Positions 7,841 to 41,523 of a stretch of DNA of 64,000 nt are shown here, piece by piece. Both the position numbers and the translations under genes were made by a program. Source of the DNA: Antedon mediterranea. Taxonomy: Eukaryota > Echinodermata > Crinoidea > Comatulida > Antedonidae. The stretch is taken from assembly GCF_964355755.1 (NCBI RefSeq), contig NC_092671.1, forward strand, positions 40,499,804 through 40,563,803. Reading direction: 5' to 3'. The notes under the pieces are model-generated. The model did not search any database, was not told where the DNA came from, and saw nothing but the letters and a program-made list of their open reading frames with translations. The number at the start of each line of letters is the position of its first letter. The first letter of the stretch is position 1.

Positions 7841-8026
7841 TTAGTACTGATCATAAACCCACGATACCGGGACCCATTGATGGTATTTTGTTAAGTTTTC
7901 TAGTGCTGTCAAAAGCATATTATACGATTCATCTATGTTGTTGTTTTCTATTATTAAGTCAAATGTATGTCTGTAATTGTTCTCTAGTCTTGCGCTCTCC
8001 TCAACTGTTTTCCGGAGATCAGAATC
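7841..8026 (-). CDS. MPP-like exon 12: GUK-like C-terminus and stop
   Basis: The acceptor TTTGTAG ends at 8027. The exon encodes [15 protein letters not shown] and ends [13 protein letters not shown] before a TAA at 7841-7843. The WVPxSWVY ending is characteristic of MPP/PALS proteins. Confidence 0.93.
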   Translation of the reverse strand, partial: DSDLRKTVEESARLENNYRHTFDLIIENNNIDESYNMLLTALENLTKYHQWVPVSWVYDQY

Positions 8027-11000
8027 CTACAAATAGGTTGAAAAGGTTACAGTTATTAAGTTGTTTCTGCACAAATATAACAGCAAAGTAAGTATATACT
8101 TATGATATAGTACTTAATATACAGTACAATGTATTGGTTCATACTGTATGTCATTAATGTAGTATGAAATGTCAATCTTTTGTTACTGTATACTACTGAC
8201 AAGAATACTAAATTGGGTCCAAACGTTAATTCATTCATTCATCTGTGGAAAATTACTTCCATTTATTGTCATTTGCATATAAAATATAATAGAAAATATG
8301 TTTGCTTCGAGATATACAATACAGATAAATGAAAGTAACAAAAACTAATTAGGATTTTTGTTATTTTAAACTTACCATAACTTGTTTGGATGACAGGCCT
8401 GCTTTCTCGGACTCTCTGTGCATATCTTTAAGTGTTTTAAAATCAGGAGATTTGACAAATACAATAAATGGAAGAAATTCACTGGTCCTCAAGGCTTTTA
8501 CTGCCTGTAAAAAAAAAAGAAAAGACCATAGTTATTCTGTATATTAAAAACATTAATAATACAATATAAAATTTGTGGAAAGTTATGCAACAGATGCATA
8601 TCCGTTACTTAGAAATTACCTTCATTTGAACCTTCTTTTGAGCCCTATACAAAGCCTATATGGCCATATATAAGCCCTATACAAAGCCTATATGGCCATA
8701 TATAAGCCCTATACAAAGCCTATATGGCCATATATAAGCCCTATACAAAGCCTATATGGCCATATATAAGCCCTATACAAAGCCTATATGGCCATATATA
8801 AGCCCTATACAAAGCCTATATGGCCATATAAGCCCTATACAAAGCCTATATGGCCATATATAAGCCCTATACAAAGCCTATATGGCCATATATAGGCCCT
8901 ATACAAAGCCTATATGGCCATATAAGCCCTATACAAAGCCTATATGGCCATATATGAGCCCTATACAAAGCCTATATGGCCATATATAAGCCCTATACAA
9001 AGCCTATATAAAGCCCTATACAAAGCCTATATGGCCATATTATAAGCCCTATACAAAGCCTATATGATGGCCATATATAAGCCCTATACAAAGCCTATGG
9101 CCATATATATTTTTACATAATGCATAATGTAGACATAGTGCGTTTATAACACATTTCAAACTAAACTGAAATGTCTAATAATGTAATTATACCATTAATT
9201 CATACATACATTTATTTATTTGTTCCAAAACAAAATAAATGTAAGCAAAACAAGCTAAAAAACAGCTTATTACATTTAAGAGAAAATTCTAGATGCCTAC
9301 CTGAGGATTAACATCTAACACACACATTTTGTTATCTTTAATCACTCTCTTAACAGAATCTATCAATGTTCCATAAAGATTTCCTTCATAATCTCCGTAT
9401 TCTAAGTACATATTATTGTGAATATCTTCTTCCATTTGTAAGCGCTCGCAGAAGATATAATCTTCACCATCAATCTCAGAATCTCGTGGTGTTCTTGATG
9501 TACCTAGACAAATATAGTACAAGAAATGTTTCTCTTTTATTTTTCATTTCTTTTTAAAACATTGTACTTGTCTGTCTTTGTATTGTGTAAGTTTTATTGT
9601 AAGTTTTTTAATGTCTTTTTATGAATGTTTTTTAATCTATTGCTAAAAAAAACAAGACCATATTATGTAAAACAGGTGCAATATCTATACCTGATACAGA
9701 TATGTTTTTATCCTGTATAAATGTTTTAAATAAAAAAATAAAAATTATGCATGATTGATTCGTTTAGCTTATAAAAATATAATTAAAGCTAAATACTAAT
9801 TCACATTATTCTAAAAAAAACAAAACATCAAGTAAAAAATATCAATGTAAAAGTAAACATAAACCAACAAAGATCACTAAAAGCAGTGATTATTGTGAAA
9901 AAGAGAATTTTGCATTTTGGTATTAAATAGAAACAAAACAAAGAAAACACATTAAAAAATGTCTCATTAGACAACCATGCATTTCCCACTTCATACATTG
10001 TAGACCACAATGCAACTGACCACATTATGGATTTATGAAGATTTAACCAATCAGAGAACAGAGATTATGCTGCTCAGCAGACTATCCAACTTTAAAAATC
10101 AATCAAAGACAGGATGAAATGGCTCAATACAACTTGGATATATACCATTTAATTGAAGGAAATCATGGCATGTTAAATGACCCGACTACAAAAATAAAAG
10201 TCTAAACTTTACCAAGACGTTATAATTAGTACCACACTTGGAGCACAGGTATGTGTATAAGGCTAGGCCAAGCTAGGATATCAACACAGGGCTAGGGCCT
10301 AGACTAGGCCAGGCCTATATAGTGAATTTGGCAGCCTAGCTAGCTCAATCAATCAATGCCATGTACAAACTGGACTTAACCTCTTAAAGTAGGAGTTATG
10401 TAGGAGCCTAGCTACTAGCTTGAGCTTGAATTAGTTATTTATATTTGGCCTAGGCTAGACCCTATGTCATGATACATTTTGATTCAAATTTGTATTCTGG
10501 TTTTCATGGTAACTTTCTCCTTGCAATGAATGGCCATCAGGCACCATTCATATGCAAGCATTCAGTGCTTCATCTACTTAGGCACACTCAAGCACATCCC
10601 AAAGGACAGTATTCTGCTTGTGTGTACTTGAGGAATCCCCTACTTAGGGGTGGGATGGGCCTAGATCATTTTCACAATGATAATTTATTTTATTAACTAC
10701 AGTTTAAACAATGACACAACATATGCCTATTAGTATTAAATACATTAAAACATGTTTATTATATTGTTTGCACAAAAGGCAATCTTTAAAAGTTGAGATA
10801 CTGTAGCTGTTTTAAAATGTGTGGATTTTCTATGTAATAAATCAGTTACAGCAGAGAACTATTTCTTTATGCTACAGAAATCATTACTCTGTTATTGTTT
10901 GTTGGATCAAACGTACAAGGAACAACCAGGTGTATTGGTGTCTGAATAATTACAGCCATAGGGTATTTAAGGGCAACACATTTTATTGATAACACCATCA

Positions 11001-14000
11001 ATTTCTAAAATGTAAATGTTGAATTAATTTTGTAATATATAGCTTTTAATGTAGCTTAAACAGTTAAAACATTAGTAACACATTAACATTTGATTAGTAT
11101 GATGTAAATAATATTAGTTTTCTGTAACCATGAACATTTCAGATCAGAAACTTAAAATAGAACATTATATAAAGAAGGAACATAATACATGATCTACCTA
11201 AAACAAAGAAAATAATATACAAGTTTCTTTTTTAATCATAGCTGTTATGAATTATCATTGTAATTATTTAAATGCTTATAAAAATGTTTAAAAAAAGTTT
11301 AGTCAGTTTCCAATAACCAGAAATGCATGCATGCAATTATGGATTTAAAGTCAGGAGTAGAAGAAGTTGTTATGAAAATACAATATTCGAAATGTACAAT
11401 ATTCACTAGATATTGAACAAATTCAATTTTATTGCCTTGTACAGTCTACTCTCCCAATACCGGACTCTCCGAAAAACAAAACCAGACTTTTCCTGAGGTC
11501 CAAAATGTCCCAAATTACCATTAGAAACTGCATACCAGACTATTCAGAAAACCGGACATATTAGGTTAGTCCAAATGTGTCCGGTATTGGGAGAGTTAAC
11601 TGTATATGTAGATACAAGGAACCATTGCCTCCACCAAATGTTACATTAAAGAACCTTGGTTGTACTCCCATGGCATCCAGCTCATATTCAGAAAGCAGTA
11701 ACAAGCAATAATGTTTTCCCTTAATGTTGTTATTTAAGCATGCAAATGCTAAACGTCTCCAAAGTATGTTACTCACTGTTTTTTCTTGTGCGATATTTCT
11801 GATTGGATGAAGCTAATAAACAAATGCATGAAAACAAAAATGAGCATGCTCAGTAAAGCCTCAGTGGCTATCCCATCATGCCACTGAGATTGCTTGACAA
11901 CGTGCTGGCATGGTAACTTCATAACAGTACTATATGAATATCATAACGTGTATATAGTCCAATTATGAATGTATTGCTCAGCAAAACATGGGGATAAATG
12001 CCGTGCAATGTAGCTACATATGATGTAAAGGGGAACATGATGATTTTAAATAGTGAAAAAAAAAACAGGGGGAAAATTGACAATGATAAATATAATTGCT
12101 ATTAATATTGACATAAAAAGAAACTTACATTTTGAATAACATAATACTTACTAGCAATGGCGGCACCAAATGCATGACCTGAATTTAACAGTCTGTTTTT
12201 TAGTGTTGTCCTACCAACCCCTTGTGCACCAATTAACACTAACGATCTTCGTTGGAAGGGTGGCATTCTCTCAACTTCCTCGTATATAGGGATGTCATTT
12301 TGATCAAACTCATAATTCTTTTTTGTTGAATATATCTTTGATTTCCTTTTCTTTGACATAAATATATCAGTTATTTTTTCTATTAAAAAAACAATTTAAA
12401 GGAACTGTTATAAGTTCTTCAATTCATATCATATTTAGTAGGATGTGTTCCATGGTTCACATACTAATACAGCTGTAACTTAATGGTTGCCTTTCAATCC
12501 CAGAGTTCAATGTTCAATCCTGACCTAATTGAGGTTTGCAACTCACCACTGTTTCTACTCTCTAAAGCTAATAAAGTTTGATAGTGTGGACAGGGCTTTT
12601 AGCCTCAAATGAAACTTATAATTGGCCATAATGCAAGCATTGCATGCAAAGAAACTGCCACCTACTGCCACCAAGTTATGTTTTATATTTTATTTATCTG
12701 CTATAAAAATGTTTAATGACTAGTTATACTGTAATTATCTTTAATGATAATTATCTGAACAAAGTTTCACAGGCTACAAATTCTTACTTTTACTAGTTTT
12801 TGAATTGTTTTGTTTAGGAACAAAAGCTCGCCTTCTCTCCTGTAGCTCCTGGCTTGGAATTAACCCTGCAGAATGCTCTGATCCAACAACAGCAGCCTTG
12901 CAATAAAACAAAAACATTATTATTATGATTTAGATATGTAACAATCGTAATATGAGTCTAATTACACAAAAGCATAACAACTTAAATAGAAACTTGAAGA
13001 TTGTACATAATAGCTCATCACATAGCATCCCTAAGGCCATTATGCTAATAAATAAAATGTTTGTATTATACATGAATTATTAATGTAATAGAATAAAGTT
13101 ATAGACACTATGTAGTTTCATGATTCGTGATGTAGAAGGTGTATTTGTTCAAATTATAGTTTTGCATAATGATCACTACTATGTTTGATGTTATATCAAT
13201 GATTTGATGAACAAACTCTTTACTATTATACTCTATGCCTAAAACTAACATTTCTGGTTGATGGGAAGAAAATTGATGGTGTATACCAGCAGGCTTAAAC
13301 ATTACACATAATATGTGTAGCACTTGATGCTGTATACCAGCAGACTTAAACATTACACATAATATGTGTAGCACTTGATGCTGTATACCAGCAGGCTTAA
13401 ACATTACACATAATATGTGTAGCACTTGATGCTGTATACCAGCAGACTTAAACATTACACATAATATGTGTAGCACTTGATGGTGTATACTAGCAGGCTT
13501 AAACATTACACATAATATGTGTAGCACTTGATGGTGTATACCAGCAGGCTTAAACATTACACATAATATGTGTAGCACTTGATGCTGTATACCAGGAGGC
13601 TTAAACATTACACATAATATGTGTAGCACTTGATGGTGTATACCAGACTTAAACATTACACATAATATGTGTAGCACTTGATGCTGTATACCAGCAGGCT
13701 TAAACATTACACATAATATGTGTAGCACTTGATGGTGTATACTAGCAGGCTTAAACATTACACATAATATGTGTAGCACTTGATGCTGTATACCAGCAGG
13801 CTTAAACATTACACATAATATGTGTAGCACTTAATGCTGTATACGAGCAGACTTAAACATTACACATAATATGTGTAGCACTTGATGCTGTATACCAGCA
13901 GGCTTAAACATTACACATAATATGTGTAGCACTTGATGCTCCTGTATACCAGCAGACTTAAACATTACACATAATATGTGTAGCACTTAATGCTGTATAC

Positions 14001-17000
14001 TAGCAGGCTTAAACATTACACATAATATGTGTAGCACTTAATGCTGTATACCAGCAGACTTAAACATTACACATATGTGTAGCACTTGATGCTGTATACC
14101 AGGCTTAAACATTACACATAATATGTGTAGCACTTGATGCTGTATACTAGCAGGCTTAAACATTACACATAATATGTGTAGCACTTGATGCTGTATACCA
14201 GGCTTAAACATTACACATAATATGTGTAGCACTTGATGCTGTATACCAGACTTAAACATTACACATAATATGTGTAGCACTTGATGCTGTATACCAGCAG
14301 ACTTAAACATTACACATAATATGTGTAGCACTTGATGGTGTATACTAGCAGACTTAAACATTACACATAATATGTGTAGCACTTGATGGTGTATACTAGC
14401 AGGCTTAAACATTACACATAATATGTGTAGCACTTGATGCTGTATACCAGCAGACTTAAACATTACACATATGTGTAGCACTTGATGCTGTATACTAGCA
14501 GGCTTAAACATTACACATAATATGTGTAGCACTTGATGGTGTATACCAGCAGGCTTAAACATTACACATAATATGTGTAGCACTTGATGCTGTATACCAG
14601 CAGACTTAAACATTACACATAATATGTGTAGCACTTGATGCTGTATACTAGCAGGCTTAAACATTACACATAATATGTGTAGCACTTGATGCTGTATACC
14701 AGGAGGCTTAAACATTACACATATGTGTAGCACTTGATGCTGTATACCAGGCTTAAACATTACACATAATATGTGTAGCACTTGATGCTGTATACCAGGC
14801 TTAAACATTACACATAATATGTGCAGCACTTAATGCTGTATACTAGCAGGCTTAAACATTACACATAATATGTGTAGCACTTGATGCTGTATACCAGCAG
14901 ACTTAAACATTACACATAATATGTGTAGCACTTGATGCTGTATACCAGCAGACTTAAACATTACACATAATATGTGTAGCACTTGATGCTGTATACCAGA
15001 CTTAAACATTACACATAATATGTGTAGCACTTGATGCTGTATACCAGCAGACTTAAACATTACACATAATATGTGTAGCACTTGATGCTGTATACCAGCA
15101 GACTTAAACATTACACATATGTGTAGCACTTGATGCTGTATACCAGGCTTAAACATTACACATAATATGTGTAGCACTTGATGCTGTATACCAGGCTTAA
15201 ACATTACACATAATATGTGTAGCACTTGATGCTGTATACCAGCAGACTTAAACATTACACATAATATGTGTAGCACTTGATGGTGTATACTAGCAGGCTT
15301 AAACATTACACATAATATGTGTAGCACTTGATGCTGTATACCAGCAGACTTAAACATTACACATAATATGTGTAGCACTTGATGGTGTATACTAGCAGGC
15401 TTAAACATTACACATAATATGTGTAGCACTTGATGCTGTATACCAGCAGACTTAAACATTACACATAATATGTGTAGCACTTGATGGTGTATACTAGCAG
15501 GCTTAAACATTACACATAATATGTGTAGCACTTGATGCTGTATACCAGCAGACTTAAACATTACACATAATATGTGTAGCACTTGATGGTGTATACTAGC
15601 AGGCTTAAACATTACACATAATATGTGTAGCACTTGATGGTGTATACTAGCAGGCTTAAACATTACACATAATATGTGTAGCACTTGATGCTGTATACCA
15701 GGCTTAAACATTACACATAATATGTGTAGCACTTGATGCTGTATACCAGCAGACTTAAACATTACACATAATATGTGTAGCACTTGATGGTGTATACTAG
15801 CAGGCTTAAACATTACACATAATATGTGTAGCACTTGATGCTGTATACCAGCAGACTTAAACATTACACATAATATGTGTAGCACTTGATGGTGTATACT
15901 AGCAGGCTTAAACATTACACATAATATGTGTAGCACTTGATGCTGTATACCAGCAGACTTAAACATTACACATAATATGTGTAGCACTTGATGCTGTATA
16001 CCAGGCTTAAACATTACACATAATATGTGTAGCACTTGATGCTGTATACCAGCAGACTTAAACATTACACATAATATGTGTAGCACTTGATGCTGTATAC
16101 CAGCAGACTTAAACATTACACATAATATGTGTAGCACTTGATGCTGTATACCAGCAGACTTAAACATTACACATAATATGTGTAGCACTTGATGCTGTAT
16201 ACCAGCAGACTTAAACATTACACATAATATGTGTAGCACTTGATGCTGTATACTAGCAGGCTTAAACATTACACATAATATGTGTAGCACTTAATGCTGT
16301 ATACTAGCAGGCTTAAACATTACACATAGTATGTGTAGCACTTAATGCTGTATACCAGCAGGCTTAAACATTACACATAATATGTGTAGCACTTGATACT
16401 GTATACCAGCAGGCTTAAACATTACACATAATATGTGTAGCACTTGATGGTGTATACTAGCAGACTTAAACATTACACATAATATGTGCAGCACTTGATG
16501 CTGTATACCAGGCTTAAACATTACACATAATATGTGTAGCACTTGATGCTCCTGTATACCAGCAGGCTTAAACATTACACATAATATGTGTAGCACTTGA
16601 TGCTGTATACCAGGCTTAAACATTACACATAATATGTGTAGCACTTGATGCTGTATACCAGCAGACTTAAACATTACACATAATATGTGTAGCACTTGAT
16701 GCTGTATACCAGGCTTAAACATTACACATAATATGTGCAGCACTTGATGCTGTATACCAGCAGACTTAAACATTACACATAATATGTGTAGCACTTGATG
16801 GTGTATACTAGCAGGCTTAAACATTACACATAATATGTGTAGCACTTGATGCTGTATACCAGCAGACTTAAACATTACACATAATATGTGTAGCACTTGA
16901 TGCTGTATACTAGCAGGCTTAAACATTACACATAATATGTGTAGCACTTGATGCTGTATACCAGCAGACTTAAACATTACACATAATATGTGTAGCACTT

Positions 17001-20000
17001 GATGCTGTATACTAGCAGGCTTAAACATTACACATAATATGTGTAGCACTTGATGCTGTATACCAGCAGACTTAAACATTACACATAATATGTGTAGCAC
17101 TTGATGCTGTATACTAGCAGGCTTAAACATTACACATAATATGTGTAGCACTTGATGCTGTATACTAGCAGGCTTAAACATTACACATAATATGTGTAGC
17201 AGATAACACTTTCTGCTATAATTTGCTTTCTACTATTCTTTGTCTAGCAATCTTTTCTAAGTAAACTTGTTTATACCATGATAAAGCATGCTTTATACGT
17301 GAACTTTGAAGAGACCCACATTAATTATTGATTAATCAATACTGCATCCATCAATGACTTTTGGATATACAGTTAGTATGTGTTAGACAATAATATTGAC
17401 TCACTATACTATGCATGTGTATTGAATGTGATTGTACTATAATCTACTGTATGGAAACAGAATAATGTCAACAATCCACTATGAGAATAGCAATATCTGG
17501 TCTAACAATATCATTGATGAGCCGCTCATCAACATAACAGGCGCCAGATTTATCAAACTTGCTTAGCAAAAAAGTCGTCTTAACTTTGCCTTAAATCCTT
17601 GATTTAGATTTATTAATATATCTAAGCAAAAATATTTGCTTAATTATATCTTAAATCTAAGACGAACAACACCCTGCCTAAAGGCCAATTTACACAGACG
17701 AGCGGTAACGGTAAGCGGTAAAGTTGAGCGGAAAACGCAAAAATAGAATCTATGTTATTTCTTATGACCATTTACACAGAACGCGGAGCAGACGAGCGGA
17801 AATCCGCTCAGGATCGAAACAGATTCGATTTTGTGAAAATACCGCGCAGTAATTATGGATTCTTGCCAACCAACGACATGATTGAAATGACGTCATCTAT
17901 CAACAAATTTTTTTTTGCGTCCGTCGAGTGAAAGACGACAATAAATACGAGTGCCGTTAGTAGGCCTAGCCTATAGTTTCTTCTTCTTTTTATTCAGAAA
18001 TACAAACACCTACGACGTGACTAATGTTCGTATAAGGATAGTGAAAAGAAAATATACATTTTAGTACGTTATTAGGCAACAATTCCCTCTAAAACTTAGG
18101 CCTGTGTGTGCTAGGCCTACTGACAGTCAGTCACATCCAGGCCAGCAGTGACTGTAACATGCATTAACCTCGAGGCCTACACGCACCTACTTTCCACCAC
18201 TCTGTTCGCGAACTCCGCGCGCTGTGTAAATGGGAAAAGCCACGCGGTTTTTCGCTTACAATTACCGCTTACCGTTACCGCTCGTCTGTGTAAATTGGCC
18301 TTTAAGATGAAAAATTTTGTCTTATCCTACTTCTTAAATATTTCAGCTTAAGCAAAAATATAAGCAAATATTGAATAAATGCAAATCTACCTCCCTACAC
18401 CTTTCTCCTACCCTGTCATAACACACATTAACCTCCCCCTTCAAACACCAATCTTCTAACCCTTACATACCTGCCACCAATTTGCATCATCTTTTTCTAC
18501 AATTTGTAAGATATCTCCTGATTTAAATGCCAGTCCAGCTTCTCGACAAGGAATCAATTTATCTTTACTCGGATCAAAACTAAAATGAGCTTTAATGTAA
18601 ATCTGGATAAGAAATCAAAATGAATTAGCATATAAAATATATTAGTGAAGAAAAATTGCATTTTTGCTTTCAATTTTTTATTTTCTATTTCTGGTGAAAA
18701 TCCTTCATTATCTGAATGTGTTTTTTTTCTGGTCAGTATGTTTCATGGTTTAATCCTTATAGGAATGCAAACTACTTGCCTTTAGGCAGTTATATTCAAG
18801 AGGACGGAAGCATTAGGAAGCTATATCAAACGGAAACTATATTATTACAGCCCGACAGATTTGAAAATTTAGTAATTTGTAAGATCTTTTTTTACTACTA
18901 CTTACCGGTGCAGGTGAAACAATATCCTGGTAACTTGGAATAATCTTTAACATGATGCCTCCAGCGGAATTCTTCATCTCTTGTTGAAGTGCTTCAGGAT
19001 CATTTGTTACATCTCTCCCATTTATCTCTTTTATAACATCTCCAACATTTAACAAACCTAAATTAAGTAAAACAAATTAGAATCTACAATTCATAACTCA
19101 TATGTAATTGATGTGTTTTAACAATTTTTTAGCATGGAGAGCTGATTTGATAGTGCTTAGCATGGCAATTCACAGGGTGTTGCACCTCTGCCTTGTGTAT
19201 AATGATGTTGATTGAAAAATGTACCGGAAAATGTAACTATTTTGTAACATGGAGAGCTGATTTGATAGTTCTTAGCACTTATGGCAATCCTCAAGATGCT
19301 GCATCTCTGCCTTGTGTATAATGATGTTGATTGAAAATTGTACCGGAAAATGTAATCATTTCGTAGCATGGAGAGCTGATTTGCGTGACAATCCTCAGGG
19401 TGCTGCACCTTTGCCTTGTGTATAAAGCTTGATTCCCACTAGAACGTAACGCAAGGACGTAAACGCAACGCAAGCGTTTTAATCAATGACAAGCGAAGTT
19501 ATAGACAGTTAGCAATCACAAGCGAATAAGCCATCGCTTGTGATTGGTCAATTCACTTGCGCTGCGTTACGTCTTTGCGTTGCGTCGCTAGTGGGAACCA
19601 CGCTTTAGGTTGTCTGATTTGCAGCAATAAAGAAATTGAATTGAATTGAAAATTGTACTGGAAAATGTAATAGAATAAATGTAACAGTACTGTATACGTA
19701 TCATCAATAATAAAACCTTACCTTGCTTATCTATCATGCCTCCTTGTAAAACCTTACCTTGCTTATCTATCATGCCTCCTTGTAAAACCTTACCTTGCTT
19801 ATCTATCATGCCTCCTTGTAAAACCTTACCTTGCTTATCTATCATGCCTCCTTGTAAAACCTTACCTTGCTTATCTATCATGCCTCCTTGTAAAACCTTA
19901 CCTTGCTTATCTATCATGCCTCCTTGTAAAACCTTACCTTGCTTATCTATCATGCCTCCTTGTAAAACCTTACCTTGCTTATCTATCATGCCTCCTTGTA

Positions 20001-23000
20001 AAACCTTACCTTGCTTATCTATCTATCATGCCTCCTTGTAAAACCTTACCTTGCTTATCTATCATGCCTCCTTGTAAAACCTTACCTTGCTTATCTATCA
20101 TGCCTCCTTGTAAAACCTTACCTTGCTTATCTATCATGCCTCCTTGTAAAACCTTACCTTGCTTATCTATCATGCCTCCTTGTAAAACCTTACCTTGCTT
20201 ATCTATCATGCCTCCTTGTAAAACCTTACCTTGCTTATCTATCATGCCTCCTTGTAAAATTCTAGAAATAACCACATCACCATCTTCCACCTTAAGGGTA
20301 ATGCCCTGAAATAAATCGTAAATAAATGTAAAAAAAATAACACATAACAAATATCATAGTAGCCTGACAGCCAACCAAGCTACCACCATCCTCATCACAT
20401 CATTTAAATGGACTGATTACCTAAATACCATTATGATTCTGTTTTCTACCAGTCCTAATATTGATGGCATGAGCTAAAAAAATCAAGGATCTCAATACTG
20501 TTAGTGTTACTGAAATTAATTACCCTAACCATTTTGGTGACCCAAGCAAGACGTTGTAGGCCTACAGTAGTTACACTTACCAAGGGTTCCGAGTCTGTTT
20601 TCCTGACACCAACCATTCTGATGGCTTGACCTGTCGGGTTGTAGGCTGACAATGGCTTTCCTTCTAATGCTGGGTAAGAATTTCTATCATATGCTTTTAT
20701 TGCAACTAGGTCATGTGATTCCATCAATGACTAAAATGAATTGTTAAATTTGAAATTTATTATACAAACATTATTGTGTGTGTCAAGAAAAAGAGATTGG
20801 CATGATTGGATGTACTATACAATAGTGTGCATCAATTACTAACAGTAAAGGCTTAACTTCTTTTAATTGGTCTGTACTTATTGAGTAAATGGATTAAGTA
20901 AACACTCCCAGGTTACTTACATGAAAATTAAGGTCTTGGAGAATGCCAGCTAATTCTGCAGCGTTGTTGCTGGAAGCTATCAAGGGTTCAATATCTTCCA
21001 TCACTTCTCCTAGTAATTCTCTTGATTTTGTTTGGACCGGGGTCAACGCAAGATCTTCCAACCTGTCATGAGCCTGTTAAAATTAAATTAAATAAATCAA
21101 AGGGATGAAATAAATGAAGAGACGTACAAAAAAGATGGTGGACATTTAGAGGTTTGATTTCTAGTGAACCTTTTATAAGATAATTCATTTTAAAAATATA
21201 CAATTAAAATTACAATTATAATATAAAATCTAGAATATCCAAAAATGGCAAAAAAGACAAAGTATATTACCATGGCAACAATGACTAATAACATTATCAA
21301 GATGTAAATAATGCTCTTAAGGTAATGAGAGCTTTGTATAATTATCTCATAATTGTCATTATAAATATTATGCTTAGAGAAAATCATAATCAGGCCTGTT
21401 GTTTACATTACAACCATGACAAACAATAGATTAATCAAGTGTTGCTAAAATGTACTTTCTATAAATCATCATAATTTCTTAATAACTTGATTATTTGGCA
21501 CTTTTTGTTATAACCATGATAAACAATAGATTTAAATCATTAAATCATAATTTCTTAATTACTGTAGAGTAACTTGATTATTTGGAATTTTCTGTTAGAA
21601 ACAATTGTTGTACATATTATATTTATCACCATACAAACTAAAGTATTGCTTTTACATTATCACAAAATATCTCATTCACATTAACCAAGCATACTACACA
21701 ATACTGATGAGCTTTTTGTAATACAAAATATTTATACATCGATTTTGAGTATTTTATTACACTGTTACAGTATAATAAAGAATGTATTTATTGCAAAATG
21801 ATATCAATGTCTTTATTGTTTATTTTGCTCTAATCTATTGTTTGGTTTATTAACATAATTTGATATAGCTTTATATATATTCATATTGTTTGTTTGAGTG
21901 GAACACAGAGAGACCATTATTTTGATAGTGCTTAGCACTCATGGCAATCTTCAGGTTACTGCACCTTGTCAAATAGTTGTATTTGTAATAATAATAATAC
22001 CATTTGATAGTGCTTAGCACTCATGGCAATCTTCAGGTTGCTGCACCTTGTCAAATAGTTGTATTTGTAATAATAATAATAATAAGTAAACAACATTTAA
22101 ATACTGTGTTAATAATAATATACTACTAAACCCATCAAATTTGATTTTAAATTATTAAATTATACTGAATGGAAAAAAGCAGTATTGAAAAATTATTAAA
22201 ATTTCTAAACAAAGAAAAACATGAAACAACTTTTTTAATTAATTTGAAGAAACTTATATAAATGATATAAATTTGCTATGCATGACTGCTCAGGTTTTTT
22301 TGCATTTTTTTACATTTCATTACACTTTATGCAACATTGATTCTCATCTGAAGGTCAGTAAATGTCAAATTCAAAATCTATTTTTAGATATTGAACAAAA
22401 ATGGCAATGGCTAAAAACCCCTAGTAGTAAACAACTAACCTGTAGTTTCTCATCAAATGCATTATATTGACATGCTATCACAATCAACATCTTTAAATTT
22501 AAGTTTTTTAAAAAGAACAAGTTAACAGCATCATATAATAGTCTCAATCCAAATGTTCTGACTAAAAATAAAGCTGAAAATGATTTGGATCAATAGTTTA
22601 AAATAAAAAGGAATTTGATTGGATAGTTATGGGGACGTATAGATTAGTAAAAGAAACTGACTGTGTAGTTTCACCTTGATACTGTAGTCCCATGGTCATG
22701 GCCCCTTGCTGAAGACTGATCAATAGTGCACAATGTTCTATAAACTAGTATGAAGGAAATGCTGGGAATAATGTTGTCCACAGTATTTCTACTGCTGAAT
22801 AAATAAATTCAACACAATTTCATATACTTCTATAATAAGTATACTACTATTCTGTTTCAAATCAGTTTTCACCAAAAAAAAAAATCCAATAAAAATGTGT
22901 ATGAAAATATTTTGAGAATTTAAGATGTTACAAAAAGTAGGGCAAAAAATTAAGATAATTATGTTGCAGAGAAAAGCATTAAAATTGATCAGCTGCTTGT

Positions 23001-32039: not shown

Positions 32040-34190
32040 AATTAATAAGAATAAAGAATACACTTAACAATATACAACAAATAACATTAATGTACGATGT
32101 AGTTTAACACTGTTCTCAACTATAGTCATTTTGGTATACTTGAGCACATTGATAAAGAATAGGATAAACTTAACAATATACAACAACTAACATTAAGGTA
32201 CGATTCCATTTAACACTGTTCTCAACTATAGTCATTTTGGTATACTTGAGCACAGTGATAAAGAATAGGATAAACTTAACAATATACAACAACAATGTAC
32301 GATCCCGTTTAACACTGTTCTCAACTATAGTCATTTTGGTATACTAGAGCACAGTGATAAAGAATAGGATAAACTTAACAATATACAACAAATAACATTA
32401 ATGTACGATCCAGTTTAACACTGTTCTCAACTATAAGTTTGTTCGATTCCTGTCTAATAACTGTGTTAATTTTGCCTTTTCCATTGATTCTGTCAGCAAT
32501 CGTCGAACGATATCTGATATGGTTTTTTTATATAATATTTTAAATTCTAAATATGACTGTTCATTAATTTCACTATTTAGTTGAAATGTTCCTGGTCGTA
32601 CACGAAATAGACATTTATTGCATATTCCTTTCAGCCGTGTCGACTGTACTAAGAGGGGACTTTTTCATAGACTACCTTATACATTTAATAATCTAAATAG
32701 CAATCATATCGATATTTTTAATGATAGACTTGGTTATTTTAAGAGGACGATTATGTGTTCACTTCTTGAACAGCCTGCATAACCTGTTTTAATTGAAATT
32801 GTTTATGGCTTGCCGATCTATGTTTTATATATATATATATATATTTTATCTGTATTTTATTGTTAAGCGTTTTTGATGTTGTATTGTTTTATGTTTCAAA
32901 CCTGTTAGTGGCGGTATTTATCGCTGTTGGTTTTGATTGAATAAAATAAAATAAAATAAAATAAAATATAGTCATTTTGGTATACTTGAGCACAGTGATA
33001 AAGAATAGGATAAACTTAACAATATACAACAAATAACATCAATGTACGATCCCGTTTAACACTGTTCTCAACTATAGTCATTTTGGTATACTTGAGCACA
33101 GTGATAAAGAATAGGATAAACTTAATAATATACAACAAATAACATTAATGTACGATCCCGTTTAACACTGTTCTCAACTATAGTCATTTTGGTATACTTG
33201 AGCACAGTGATAAAGAATAGGATAAACTTAACAATATACAACAAAAAAACATTAATGTACGATCCAGTTTAACACTGTTCTCAACTATAGTCATTTTGGT
33301 ATACTTGAGAACAGTTATAAAGAATAGGATAAACTTAACAATATACAACAAAAAACATTAATGTACGATCCCGTTTAACACTGTTCTCAACTATAGTCAT
33401 TTTGGTATACTTGAGCAGTGATAAAGAATAGGATAAACTTAACAATATACAACAAAAAACATTAATGTACGATCCCGTTTAACACTGTTCTCGACTATAG
33501 TCATTTTGGTATACTTGAGAACAGTGATAAAGAATAGGATAAACTTAACAATATACAACAAAAAAACATTAATGTACGACGATCCAGTTTAACACTGTTC
33601 TCAACTATAGTCATTTTGGTATACTTGAGAACAGTTATAAAGAATAGGATAAACTTAACAATATACAACAAAAAACATTAATGTACGATCCCGTTTAACA
33701 CTGTTCTCAACTATAGTCATTTTGGTATACTTGAGCAGTGATAAAGAATAGGACAAACTTAACAATATACAACAAATAACATTAATGTACGATCCAGTTT
33801 AACACTGTTCTCAACTATAGTCATTTTGGTATACTTGAGCAGTGATAAAGAATAGGACAAACTTAATAATATACAACAAATAACATTAATGTACGATCTA
33901 GTTTACCACTGTTCTCAACTATAGTCATTTTGGTATACTTGAGCATAGTGATAAAGAATAGGATAAACTTAACAATATACAACAAAAAACATTAATGTAC
34001 GATCCCGTTTAACACTGTTCTCGACTATAGTCATTTTGGTATACTTGAGAACAGTGATAAAGAATAGGATAAACTTAACAATATACAACAAATAACATTA
34101 ATGTACACGATTCTGTTTAACACTGTTCTCAACTATAGTCATTTTCATATACTTGAGCACAGTGATAATATGAAAAACATAATAACACTA
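32040..34190 (+). repeat. ~105-bp satellite, ~15 units, direct orientation
   Basis: The unit includes TATAGTCATTTTGGTATACT, TGAGCACAGTGATAAAGAAT, AGGATAAACTTAACAATATA and TTTAACACTGTTCTCAAC. Each unit has a 10-bp dyad (CTCAACTATA/TATACTTGAG). The array is interrupted by a LINE 3' end at 32436-32966. Confidence 0.9.
32436..32966 (+). mobile_element. 5'-truncated LINE 3' end inserted in the satellite
   Basis: The insertion ends in (AATAA)n-like AATAAAATAAAATAAAATA and is flanked by TATA, after which the satellite unit resumes exactly where it stopped. Before the tail, one frame contains RNRHLLHIPFSRVDCTKRG, similar to the C-terminal region of several non-LTR reverse transcriptase ORFs. A related tail with GCTGTTGG occurs at 36512-36590 (inverted). 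Confidence 0.75.
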
Positions 34191-35490
34191 TAATATTTGT
34201 AGATGAATGACGCGGACACATACATATGTTCATAAGTAATTGATATAAATTGACTTTTAAAAGTGGAATTAACACAAATGATTGTAGATAAATATGACGT
34301 GAATTGCACGTACATTATGTTGATGAGTAGTATATTTATATAAATCTACTTTGAAAAGTGAAATAACACTAATATTTGTAGATGAATATGACTTGGACAC
34401 GATTTACATATATGTTGATGCGTATATTGATATAAATCGACTTTTAAAAGTGAAATAACACTAATATTTGTAGATGAATATGAATGACGTGGACACGTAC
34501 GGTACATAATGTTGATGAGTAATATTGATATAAAGCGACTTTTAAAAGTGAAATAACACTATTGATTGTAGATGAATATGACGTGGACAAGTACATTTAT
34601 TGATGAGTATTTTGATATAAATCGACTTTTAAAAGTGAAATAACACTATTAGTTGTACACTATTGATCATATATGAATATGACGTGAATTGCACGTACAT
34701 ATGTTGATGAGTAGGCCTATATTGATATAATTGACTTCGAAAAGTGAAATAACACTGATTTGTAAATGAATATGACGTGGACAAGTACATTTATTGATGA
34801 GTAACTTGATAAATCGACTTTTAAAAGTGAAATAACACTAATATTTATAGATGAATATGACGTGCACACGTACATATGTTGATGAGTATATTGATATAAA
34901 TCGACTTTTAAAAGTGGAATTAACACTATTGATTGTAGACGTGAATTGCACGTACATATGTTGATGAGTGTATTGATATAAATCGACTAAACGTTAAATA
35001 ACACTATATCTTGTACAAGTACCCTCACTTGCACTGATGAAGGGCTAGTGTTGCCCGAAAACTCTGCTAACTTTTCTGGCTGTTTTACTTTATCGTTTTG
35101 ATTTAGCTTTTTTCGCTTCTTTTTTTGTATTTCCATTGAGACCACAGCATTGTTATTATTTCAGTATTTTGCCTTTGAATTTACTAATATTAAAAGTGAA
35201 ATAACACTAATGACTGTAGATGATATGACATTTATGTTGATGTATATATTTTTGTATATATAATATGCACACGTACATACGTTGATAGGTATTGATATAA
35301 ATAGATTTTTAAAAGTACGGTAATAGACACTTTATTTGTAGATGAATACGACATGGACAAGTTGCAATAAATTCTATCGTTATATCGTATGTTGATGAGT
35401 ATTGATATAAATCGACTTTTTAAAAGTGGAATAACACTAAAATGTATAGATGGATATGGCCTCAACAAGTATTGTATTAAGCGGTACTGT
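34190..35490. repeat. ~90-bp satellite, ~13 diverged units
   Basis: The units share GATGAATATGACGTGGACA, GTACATATGTTGATGAGTA, TTGATATAAATCGAC and TTTTAAAAGTGAAATAACAC. They are more diverged than the neighbouring ~105-bp units. A unique ~170-bp stretch interrupts at about 35015-35190. Confidence 0.85.
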
Positions 35491-35899
35491 ATATTAATAG
35501 AGTTCATACCTGTAATGTCAATGAAATCTGGCAACAAGAATTGTGTTTGATCCTCCTAATAGTATTCTAATAATCTTGGTTTGTAAAGTAGGCATGAAAA
35601 ATCTAAACGCATAGCCAGGGGAGGGCTTGGAGTTTCGAACAAACTCCCCTGTGCCCGTCCTACGGTTTTTGTGAACTTTTTAGTAGCGTGCAAACGCGAC
35701 TCTACAGCTCACTATGTCGGTCGGTCGGTAAACACCAACTCAAATTTGAGCACGCGACTGCAGCCATGTATATGTTTCTGTTTATACTAGAAATCAGCAG
35801 TGAAAGTATATGTAAATAATATGTGTTAATATAGAATTAGTTTTTTTTATTTAATAAATAGTATTAAAGTTGATCTTATTCTTTATCTGTGATTAATTA

Positions 35900-36930
35900 T
35901 ACTCAAATGACTATAGTTTAAAACAGTATTAAACGGCATCGTACATTAATGTTATTTGCTGTTTATTCGAAGTTTATCCTATTCTTTATCACTGTGCTCT
36001 AGTATATCAAAATGACTATAGTTGAGAACGGTGTTAAACTGGATCGTACATTAATGTTATTTGTTGTATATTGTTAAGTTTATCCTATTCTTTATCACTG
36101 TGCTCAAGTATACCAAAATGACTATAGTTGAGAACAGTGTTAAACTGGATCGTACATTAATGTTATTTGTTGTATATTGTTAAGTTTATCCTATTCTTTA
36201 TCACTGTGCTCAAGTATACCAAAATGACTATAGTCGAGAACAGTGTTAAACTGGATCGTACATTAATGTTATTTGTTGTATATTATTAAGTTTATCCTAT
36301 TCTTTATCACTGTGCTCAAGTATACCAAAATGACTATAGTTGAGAACAGTGTTAAACGGGATCGTACATTAATGCTATTTGTTGTATATTATTAAGTTTA
36401 TCCTATTCTTTATCACTGTGCTCAAGTATACCAAAATGACTATAGTTGAGAACAGTGTTAAACGGGATCGTACATTAATGCTATTTGTTGTATATTGTTA
36501 AGTTTATCCTATTGTTTATTTTTTTAATTTTTTATTTTATTTCATACTCATCCAACAGCGAGTAACCCGCCAATTACAGGATGGATAAACTATTTAATTA
36601 ATGTTATTTGTTGTATATTGTTAAGTTTATCCTATTCTTTATCACTGTGCTCAAGTATACCAAAATGACTATAGTTGAGAACAGTGTTAAACAGGATCAT
36701 ACATTAATGTTATTTGTTGTATATTATTAAGTTTATCCTATTCTTTATCACTGTGCTCAAGTATACCAAAATGACTATAGTTGAGAACAGTGTTAAACGG
36801 GATCATACATTAATGTTATTTGTTGTATATTATTAAGTTTATCCTACCGTATTCTTTATCACTGTGCTCAAGTATACTAAAATGACTATAGTTGAGAACA
36901 GTGTTAAACTGGATCGTACATTAATTTTAT
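35900..36930 (-). repeat. ~105-bp satellite, ~9 units, inverted orientation
   Basis: The same family as 32040-34190, in reverse complement (CTCAAGTATACCAAAATGAC, GTTGAGAACAGTGTTAAAC). With the left array it forms inverted arms ~1.7 kb apart. Confidence 0.9.
36512..36590 (-). mobile_element. Very short LINE 3' end
   Basis: On the minus strand GGCGGGTTACTCGCTGTTGG is followed by an A-rich tail with GAAATAAAATAAAAAA. It resembles the end at 32900-32966 (GGCGG...TCGCTGTTGG) and interrupts a satellite unit. Confidence 0.55.
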
Positions 36931-39105: not shown

Positions 39106-41332
39106 TTAAGTTAATGGTTTTCGTGACAATCCGTCAGCATTACCATTAGAAATACCCCTTCTATGTACAACAGTAAAGCAATAAGGTTGTAAATCAAGAC
39201 TCCATCTAGTTAGTCTTTTGTTTGTCTCTTTCATTTCAACCAACCATTTGAGTGGTTGATGGTCAGTAACTATGTTAAATTTTCTGCCAAGTAGATAATA
39301 TCGCAGACTTTCGACAGCCCATTTTACCATTAGAAATACCCCTTCTATGTACAACAGTAAAGCAATAAGGTTGTAAATCAAGACTCCATCTAGTTAGTCT
39401 TTTGTTTGTCTCTTTCATTTCAACCAACCATTTGAGTGGTTGATGGTCAGTAACTATCTTAAATTTTCTGCCAAGTAGATAATATCGCAGACTTTCGACA
39501 GCCCATTTTATAGCTAAACACTCTTTCTCTATAGTTGCATAATTCTGTTCCCTTGGGAACATCTTACGACTAAGATACAATACTGGATGGTCAGTACCAT
39601 CAGGACCTAGTTGACTAAGTACTGCACCTAACCCTCGATCTGACGCATCTGTTTGCAGTATAAACTCTGCATTAAAATCTGGGTTTCGTAACACAGGGTC
39701 TGAACATAATGCCTGTTTTAACTTTACAAGTGCATCTTCGCACTCAGGCGTCCATTTGATTTTATCTGGATGTTTTTTCCCCGTCAGATCAGTTAGAGGT
39801 GCTGCAATGTCAGCATAATTAGGAATAAACTTTCGGTAGTATCCTGTCAGGCCAAGAAAAGATTTAACATCCTTCTTAGTTTTAGGTTTTTCCCATTGTA
39901 CTACCGCTTCTACCTTAGTCTTTTGAGGACGTATCATTCCCTCTCCAACTACATACCCTAAATAATGCACTTTACTATGTGCGAAACTACATTTTGCAGG
40001 TTTGACTGTCAGATTAGCTTGCTTGAGGGTCCGAAAAATGTCCCTAAGATGATGGATATGACTTTCCCAGTCTGGACTAAATATTACCAGATCATCCATA
40101 TAAGCTGCTGCATAAGATTCTTTCTTGCGCAACAGTTGATCCATCATTCTTTGAAACGTTGCAGGAGCCCCATGCAAGCCAAATGGTAAATACTTAAATT
40201 GGTACAAACCCATTGGTGTTGAAAAAGCAGTATATGGTTTTGACCGTTCAGTTAATGGAACCTGCCAGTAACCTTTACATAAATCTAACTTTGTTATAAA
40301 TTTAGCAGGACCAACCCTGCCTATTATTTCATCTATTCGAGGCATTGGATATGCATCAAACTTGCTCAAGATATTCACTTTTTTGTAATTTACGCAAAAG
40401 CGAGCTGTACCGTCCGGCTTTGGTACCATGATATAAGGAGAGGACCAGGGACTGTGAGACTCTTCTATTACCCCAAGTTCCAACATAGATTCTATCTCTT
40501 CTTTTACTTTGCCTAACTTAGCCTGAGGAATTGGATAAGCTCTTAATCTAACTGGGTGTACCCCTAGGTTCATTTCAATATCATGCTTTATTACAGTAGT
40601 TTTCCCTGGCTTATCCTGTAACACTGAGTCAAATTCAGAAAACACCTCCGCTAAATCTGAAAGCTGAGATTCATCTAATCCTTCACCAGAATCTAAGGTT
40701 AAATTGGAACTAGAAATATTTGACCAAGAAATGTCCTTATCCTGACCCTCGTCTTGTCCAGTTACATCATTTATAGCCAGCATAACCTCAATAGTTCTAC
40801 GATGAAATTGTTTTAAAAGATTTATGTGGTAGACTTTTGACTTTTTCCGTTTATCATTAGTTTCCACCTCATAGTTTACTGGACCTAGTTTCCTTAAAAC
40901 CTTGTAAGGACCTTGCCATTTGGCCTCTAATGCATTGTTACTAGATGGTAAGAGTAATAGGACTTCATCACCTGGACTAAATTCTCTACAAACAGATTTC
41001 TGATCATATTTTTGTTTTTGCCTTGTTTGGGATAGTTCAATGTTTTCCTGGACTAGATCTTTCATTGAAGTTAACCTATCTCTCATTTTAACAACGTGTG
41101 AAACCACACTTTGAGGACCTGTCACCGTGCCTGTCCACATTTCTTTCATTATATCAAGTGGACCTTGTACCTTCCAACCATACAATAATTCAAATGGAGG
41201 GAACCCAGTTGACTCCTGCGGTACCTCCCTATAAGCAAATAATAGGTACGGAAGCAATTTATCCCATTCTCGGGGATCATCCTGAACAAATTTTCTAATC
41301 ATAGCCTTGAGGGTGCCATTAAATCTTTCCAC
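39106..41332 (-). pseudogene. Gmr1-like pol: integrase C-terminus, RT and RNase H
   Basis: A continuous frame 41332-39275 contains: integrase C-terminal part (residues ~1-180, with VERFNGTLKA region and GPYKVL, the GPY/F module), a linker, reverse transcriptase (~225-480, with TKLDLCKGYWQVPL and AAYMDDLVIF) and RNase H (~530-665, with QTDASDRGLGAVL and TDHQPLKWL). A 185-bp tandem duplication (39139-39325 repeated at 39324-39510) shifts the frame, and the intact RNase H end (NADGLSRKPLT) is only in the left copy at 39106-39381. The integrase N-terminal part is separated by the 5-kb insertion. Confidence 0.9.
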
Positions 41333-41366
41333 TAATCCATCGGTTTGTGGATGGTAGGGAGCCCTT

Positions 41367-41523
41367 AATTGAAAGTAACTTATAAATTTGACTCAACAAC
41401 TTAGAGGTAAAGTTAGAGCCTTGAATTGATCGGTTAAAATTTCTGTTGGTACCCCTACCCTGGAAAATAATTTAATCAACTCATCCGCTATCTTTGGAGC
41501 TTCAATACTTCTCAGTGGGATAG
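41367..41523 (-). repeat. Left copy of the duplicated integrase segment
   Basis: 157 bp nearly identical to 46593-46744 (152 bp). It differs by a 5-bp insertion (AATTG after CCTTG) that destroys the frame here. The two copies bracket the foreign + strand fragment. Confidence 0.9.

Follow-up and report, generated by a model that had tools for sequence, protein, structure and literature searches.

A young, probably tolerated minisatellite that repeats the 5' splice site of a PDZ exon fifteen times

What happens to a gene in which one 5' splice site has been copied fifteen times in a row? This question is raised by the minus strand of the 64,000-nucleotide stretch of DNA analysed here (the window), where the end of a PDZ-domain exon and the donor that follows it together form the repeat unit of a 36-bp minisatellite. 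The array is real and young, and it is a known kind of structure. From its sequence, and by analogy with other arrays, we propose that it is probably a tolerated minisatellite of the "mirage" type described in lancelets, with the exon-proximal donor (donor 1) in use.

The array and its host gene

Tandem Repeats Finder placed a tandem array at 19711-20259, with a period of 36, 15.1 copies, 98% matches and a score of 1062. On the minus strand the array splits into 15 units, with starts at 20259, 20223 and so on to 19751. Fourteen of the 15 are identical 36-mers, and comparison of all the units gave zero base substitutions. An earlier reading of this DNA (the sequence-only reading) had described the PDZ exon end and its donor as the unit of a 36-bp array with 15 equal donors. 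Both procedures agree with that description, and unit splitting returned the same exon ends that it had listed for donors 1-6.

19711 to 20259, minus strand: 36-bp minisatellite, 15 units and then a TTTTA tail; 30 nt of exon end and 6 nt of intron (GTAAGG) make up each unit
20004 to 20043, minus strand: unit 7 by unit splitting, 40 bp, with 4 extra bases that are a local duplication of AGAT
19717 to 20230, minus strand: 15 identical 5' splice sites, CAAG/GTAAGG
20230, 20194, 20158, 20122, 20086, 20050, 20010 and 19974, minus strand: last exon bases of donors 1-8
19938, 19902, 19866, 19830, 19794, 19758 and 19722, minus strand: last exon bases of donors 9-15
20230 to 20305, minus strand: exon 5 with donor 1, the first half of the PDZ domain, 76 nt, phase 0 in and phase 1 out
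18906 to 19057, minus strand: exon 6, the next exon, starting at 19057, the second half of the PDZ domain

Fifteen near-perfect 36-mers cannot be the product of chance. A 28-nt core of the unit, searched with up to 3 mismatches, occurs at the window locus only in the 354-Mb, 18-contig assembly, with at least 14 perfect matches; the counts are lower bounds, unit 7 being missed owing to its insertion. Exon 5 and the array together fold as RNA no better than shuffled sequences (z 0.55, 74 of 100 shuffles equal or better), and Rfam gave zero matches within the window at gathering scores. The GC fraction is 0.34-0.35 for the window and the fetched loci. A family search for COX1 found no match in the assembly, which is no proof that the gene is absent. 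That the array was expanded, collapsed or misjoined in assembly might be suspected from the identity of 14 units, and one published lancelet mirage was, according to the excerpt available, aberrantly assembled in a draft genome (PMC3087553). However, the array, at about 550 bp, would be short relative to long reads, unit 7 has a variant of its own and the assembly holds other donor-bearing arrays, so that an artefact is highly improbable.

Exon 5 starts at 20305, directly after ...TTTCAG. Joined from donor 1 to exon 6 it yields a PDZ domain whose best match in the PDB is MPP2 (2e7k, E 3.5e-22), gap-free at the junction, which reads KQ-G/LLNVGD. The MAGUK exons outside the PDZ domain were chosen by eye from minus-strand open frames and are mapped as frames:

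20897 to 21076, minus strand: open frame holding the L27-domain exon (Pfam L27, 1.1e-4)
20581 to 20730, minus strand: part of the open frame holding exon 4, which ends ...TDSEPL at 20581 and is followed by GTAAGT
18459 to 18602, minus strand: open frame with the first SH3 piece, which matches SH3_2 (2.5e-7) once joined by eye to a piece near 12.9 kb
7844 to 12395, minus strand: open frames with the guanylate-kinase exons up to the stop codon (Guanylate_kin, 2.4e-48), joined by eye

The order L27-PDZ-SH3-guanylate kinase is that of an MPP2/6-type MAGUK, and the host is apparently an intact gene of this type, to which MPP6 and varicose also belong. Relatives of the PDZ domain lie on contigs C5 (query residues 1-69, 49% identity) and C10 (residues 8-44, 51%). 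Between the two SH3 pieces, at 13273-17201, lies a 51-bp array of about 78 copies, whose minus strand holds open frames of 486, 295, 263 and 240 residues of a 17-residue repeat where an intron is expected.

Donors 2-6 are open and in frame, and would add 1-5 copies of a 12-residue repeat peptide to the PDZ domain. The first in-frame stop (TAA) starts 212 nt past donor 1, within unit 7. Because the insertion in this unit places the TAA in frame, use of donors 7-15 would give nonsense transcripts. Both halves of this picture, frame kept by donors 1-6 and lost to a stop from donor 7 onwards, had been drawn in the sequence-only reading and are borne out here. The PDB alignments to MPP2, CASK and p55, three among the matches listed, have no insert at the junction position.

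Tandem-donor arrays elsewhere in the assembly

The assembly was scanned with several spellings of a motif of three tandem donors spaced 16-46 bp apart, and 37 distinct arrays were examined: the one in the window and sets of 12, 17 and 7. Four more copies of the 36-bp C3 family, an array at C4:30494187 and L044, which belongs to the acceptor set described below and also holds donors, are not among the 37. L022 covers only the first part of its array; the far end of that array is L035, which was left out of the count. Further donor arrays are likely to exist in the assembly.

Visual inspection placed 15 of the 37 arrays at an exon end, where a coding-like open frame runs up to the first donor; in the remaining 22 no exon end was recognised by eye. 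The 37 were selected for donor-like motifs, and the proportion is uninformative on how often minisatellites hit donors. Ahead of the frame, 12 of the 15 show acceptor-like sequence; in L020, L027 and L030 this position falls beyond the stretch viewed. The array exon has a database match in 11 of the 15, the window included, the other ten being as follows:

L006: DHX8, 6.7e-58, PDB match crossing the donor-1 junction
L010: EGF, 3.1e-8, match over the array exon
L020: TDP2, 1.4e-10, match over the array exon
L021: NEK kinase, 9.4e-15, PDB match crossing the donor-1 junction
L027: dynein heavy chain lid, 2.9e-11, profile match ending within one residue of the junction
L028 (G000:C9:1175200-1178700): importin-9, 4.6e-33, PDB match crossing the donor-1 junction
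L029: Ku80, 7e-11, PDB match crossing the donor-1 junction
L030: CoA-transferase III, 1.1e-8 for the exon alone and 4.1e-13 with the next exon
L051: DHRS1, 5e-23, PDB match crossing the donor-1 junction
L055: 48 donors; axonemal dynein light chain 1 (DNAL1-like), 6.7e-13, match over the array exon

The exon-end arrays have 4 to 74 donors each and periods of 36, 37, 41, 44, 41, 31, 45, 44, 31, 15, 32, 20, 17, 27 and 20 (20-21) bp. Four of these 15 are divisible by three, as chance predicts (p 0.79 against one third). In 11 of the 15, every donor past the first is out of frame or bears a stop; open in-frame later donors number one each in L022 and L055, five in the window and 73 in the importin-9-like array. 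Thus, if the genes concerned work, donor 1 must be usable in those 11, and DHX8, with its 37-bp unit, works only if a good share of its transcripts use the first donor. An exon with a database match and the lack of any productive later donor coincide in eight of the 15. In the importin-9-like array the 15-bp unit carries 74 donors with the frame open throughout, and retention would give VSYIE repeats. Transposon-like stretches (AATCACAAGCGATGG...), alike by eye, are found near exon-end arrays at 19440-19610 of the window and downstream of the L030 array.

Counts of triple motifs against the reversed motif gave no consistent excess that would mark donors as minisatellite hot spots. The ratios of motif to reversed motif were 364:146 for AAGGTAAG, 179:240 for CAGGTAAG, 143:177 for GAGGTAAG, 40:31 for CAGGTGAG and 142:47 for AAGGTGAG, with 86:38 for AAGGTAAGT and 38:13 for CAGGTAAGT as subset counts; the matches overlap and mainly reflect copy number, and the figures are not numbers of arrays. 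The acceptor motif TTTTCAGG gave 40:6. Among 13 distinct arrays of this motif one (L036) lies at an exon start, compared with 15 of 37 donor arrays at an exon end (Fisher p 0.04), a contrast that is suggestive only, given by-eye exon calls and unequal background rates of the motifs.

L036 (G000:C1:41235200-41236900) is a three-fold 39-bp repeat across a 3' splice site, ahead of a DEAD-box helicase-like exon (RVARAGRSGTAFS), which we take to be DDX54-like and which has no Pfam match. Its repeat preserves the frame, and an upstream acceptor would add residues. L044 (G000:C6:1772600-1774200) has an 18-bp unit, TTTTCAG/GTAAGT three times over, in which acceptor and donor adjoin as in a recursive splice site.

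Published mirages and the choice of donor

Minisatellites across exon-intron boundaries have been named "mirages" in amphioxus, and the literature is cited here from excerpts of the papers. One excerpt describes mirages in two globin genes, BflGb6 and BflGb9, and units of 10-72 bp in Adh3, the latter from earlier work, and reports undisturbed splicing for the Adh and globin mirages (PMC3087553). According to another, Adh and troponin C mirages yield no aberrant mRNAs, and the authors infer the same for PGBD5 (PMC3902484). Length variation, between haplotypes or somatic, is reported for some lancelet mirages. The unit in the window likewise spans an exon-intron boundary and repeats a splice signal, CAAG/GTAAGG here and AG/GT in many, not all, of the published cases. 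It differs in its MAGUK host, in its 15 near-identical units and in being known from one assembly, and the amphioxus cases also differ from the array with 74 donors in the present genome.

Other systems are less close. Human variable internal tandem repeats have units of about 30 bp on average, some of them at exon-intron boundaries, but the excerpt deals with paralogs from recent duplications, for which transcript data back both new introns and alternative transcripts (PMC2812944), whereas the window gene shows no hint of a new intron and its only relative in the assembly is a distant PDZ. A potato RdRp gene in which intron gain is described also involves a tandem duplication within a gene, considered there as a source of splice sites (PMC4974935, in excerpt); here a new intron is neither needed nor indicated, and the old intron would just be lengthened. 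The sequence-only reading knew of no described case in this gene family. This may hold for the family, as our literature queries, which carried no gene-family name, found no such array for an MPP-type gene or a PDZ exon, but the kind of structure has been described, in the lancelet mirages. The queries returned nothing on identical tandem donors.

Four readings had been put forward: a length-variable PDZ domain, donor competition, a copy-number polymorphism that tunes expression by nonsense-mediated decay, and a tolerated expansion in which the first or the last donor always wins. The 11 of 15 arrays without a productive later donor and the lancelet cases favour tolerated expansion in its first-donor form, and the other readings fare less well. 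By analogy with the other arrays, donor 1 is most likely the donor used in the window gene, and the in-frame period of 36 bp looks like a coincidence.

Were donors 2-6 used often enough, the gene would make isoforms with 1-5 copies of the 12-residue peptide between the PDZ halves, and the identity of the donors and the open frame through them would allow this. The excerpt on human segmental duplications adds that repeats at exon-intron boundaries can, through new introns, lead to alternative splicing, with an alternative transcript in 66% of those intron changes as well (PMC2812944). However, the insert would fall inside a compact domain at a position where MPP2, CASK and p55 have none, the other arrays show no favour for in-frame periods, and lancelet mirages reportedly splice normally in the excerpts available (PMC3087553, PMC3902484). 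We therefore regard a length-variable PDZ domain as very unlikely.

Most studies of how the spliceosome picks one of several identical, competing donors have used engineered constructs. If the donors in the window competed, with donors 7-15 giving nonsense transcripts, the length of the array would tune expression through decay. The insertion in unit 7 provides for the nonsense, and intron-proximal donors are said to win often in reporter work. Against this, 11 of the 15 arrays have later donors that are out of frame or stop-bearing, some of them in conserved genes such as DHX8, and strong competition should be selected against. Such tuning by copy number is no more credible than the length-variable domain.

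Several points weigh against the use of donor 1 in a tolerated array. The frame permits donors 2-6 in the window and all 73 later donors in the importin-9-like array, and protein logic alone thus cannot exclude their use. Four of the 15 exon-end calls (L008, L012, L022 and L031) were made from the frame, with no match to the array exon; exons further downstream of L012 match carnitine acyltransferase weakly (6.6e-4 and 1.4e-4), and its donor-1 join has no match across the junction. The join at donor 1 is gap-free in all six arrays whose best PDB match spans the junction (the window, L006, L021, L028, L029 and L051), but the downstream exons were chosen by eye for family continuity, which makes these joins partly circular; the exon end itself at donor 1 stands outside this circularity. 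The L030 join places 73 residues on 72 positions of its Pfam profile, hence at least one gap somewhere. In the duplicated-donor work of Eperon from 1993 and 2000, engineered genes reportedly often favoured the intron-proximal site, a preference that, if valid here, would have the PDZ gene make nonsense. The human boundary repeats with alternative transcripts count on the same side, and the excerpt on amphioxus allows that mirage repeats could act as cryptic sites (PMC3087553).

Origin, age and significance

The sequence TTTTA stands at both edges of the array, in the exon before CAAGG and in the intron after GGTAAGG at the array end. A duplication between two such 5-bp stretches would give a unit of exactly 36 bp, which slippage or unequal exchange may then have expanded to 15 units. 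The upstream acceptor would be joined to donor 1, keeping the 76-nt exon and the gap-free PDZ domain, and donors 2-15 would belong to the intron, as the protein, the other arrays of the genome and the published lancelet cases suggest. Individuals would be expected to differ in copy number without much consequence for the protein, and the effect of the array is most likely neutral variation in intron length. Assuming independent units and a rate of 1e-9 to 1e-8 substitutions per site per generation, the array is unlikely to be older than about 5.5 to 0.55 million generations, a bound that homogenisation would weaken.

Two further features of the window lie away from the gene. On the minus strand, 39275-41392 holds a 705-residue open frame with integrase-, reverse-transcriptase- and RNase H-like stretches, by eye a retroelement. 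Mutually related arrays of 106-bp repeats, some in each orientation, occupy 32058-36930, alongside arrays of 82-87 bp.

One genome thus offers 15 candidate natural tandem-donor constructs, in eight of which the correct protein can come from the first donor alone, and RNA reads could answer which donor is chosen. It is very unlikely, in our judgement, that a measurable share of transcripts comes from donors 2-6 or 7-15, so that copy number sets both the form of the PDZ domain and its dose; if this were true, the 15 candidates would make up a class of genes with isoform ratios set by the copy number of identical donors. Published mirage hosts are lancelets in all the cases met in the excerpts (PMC3087553, PMC3902484), and a host outside the lancelets here would extend the range in which mirages are known.

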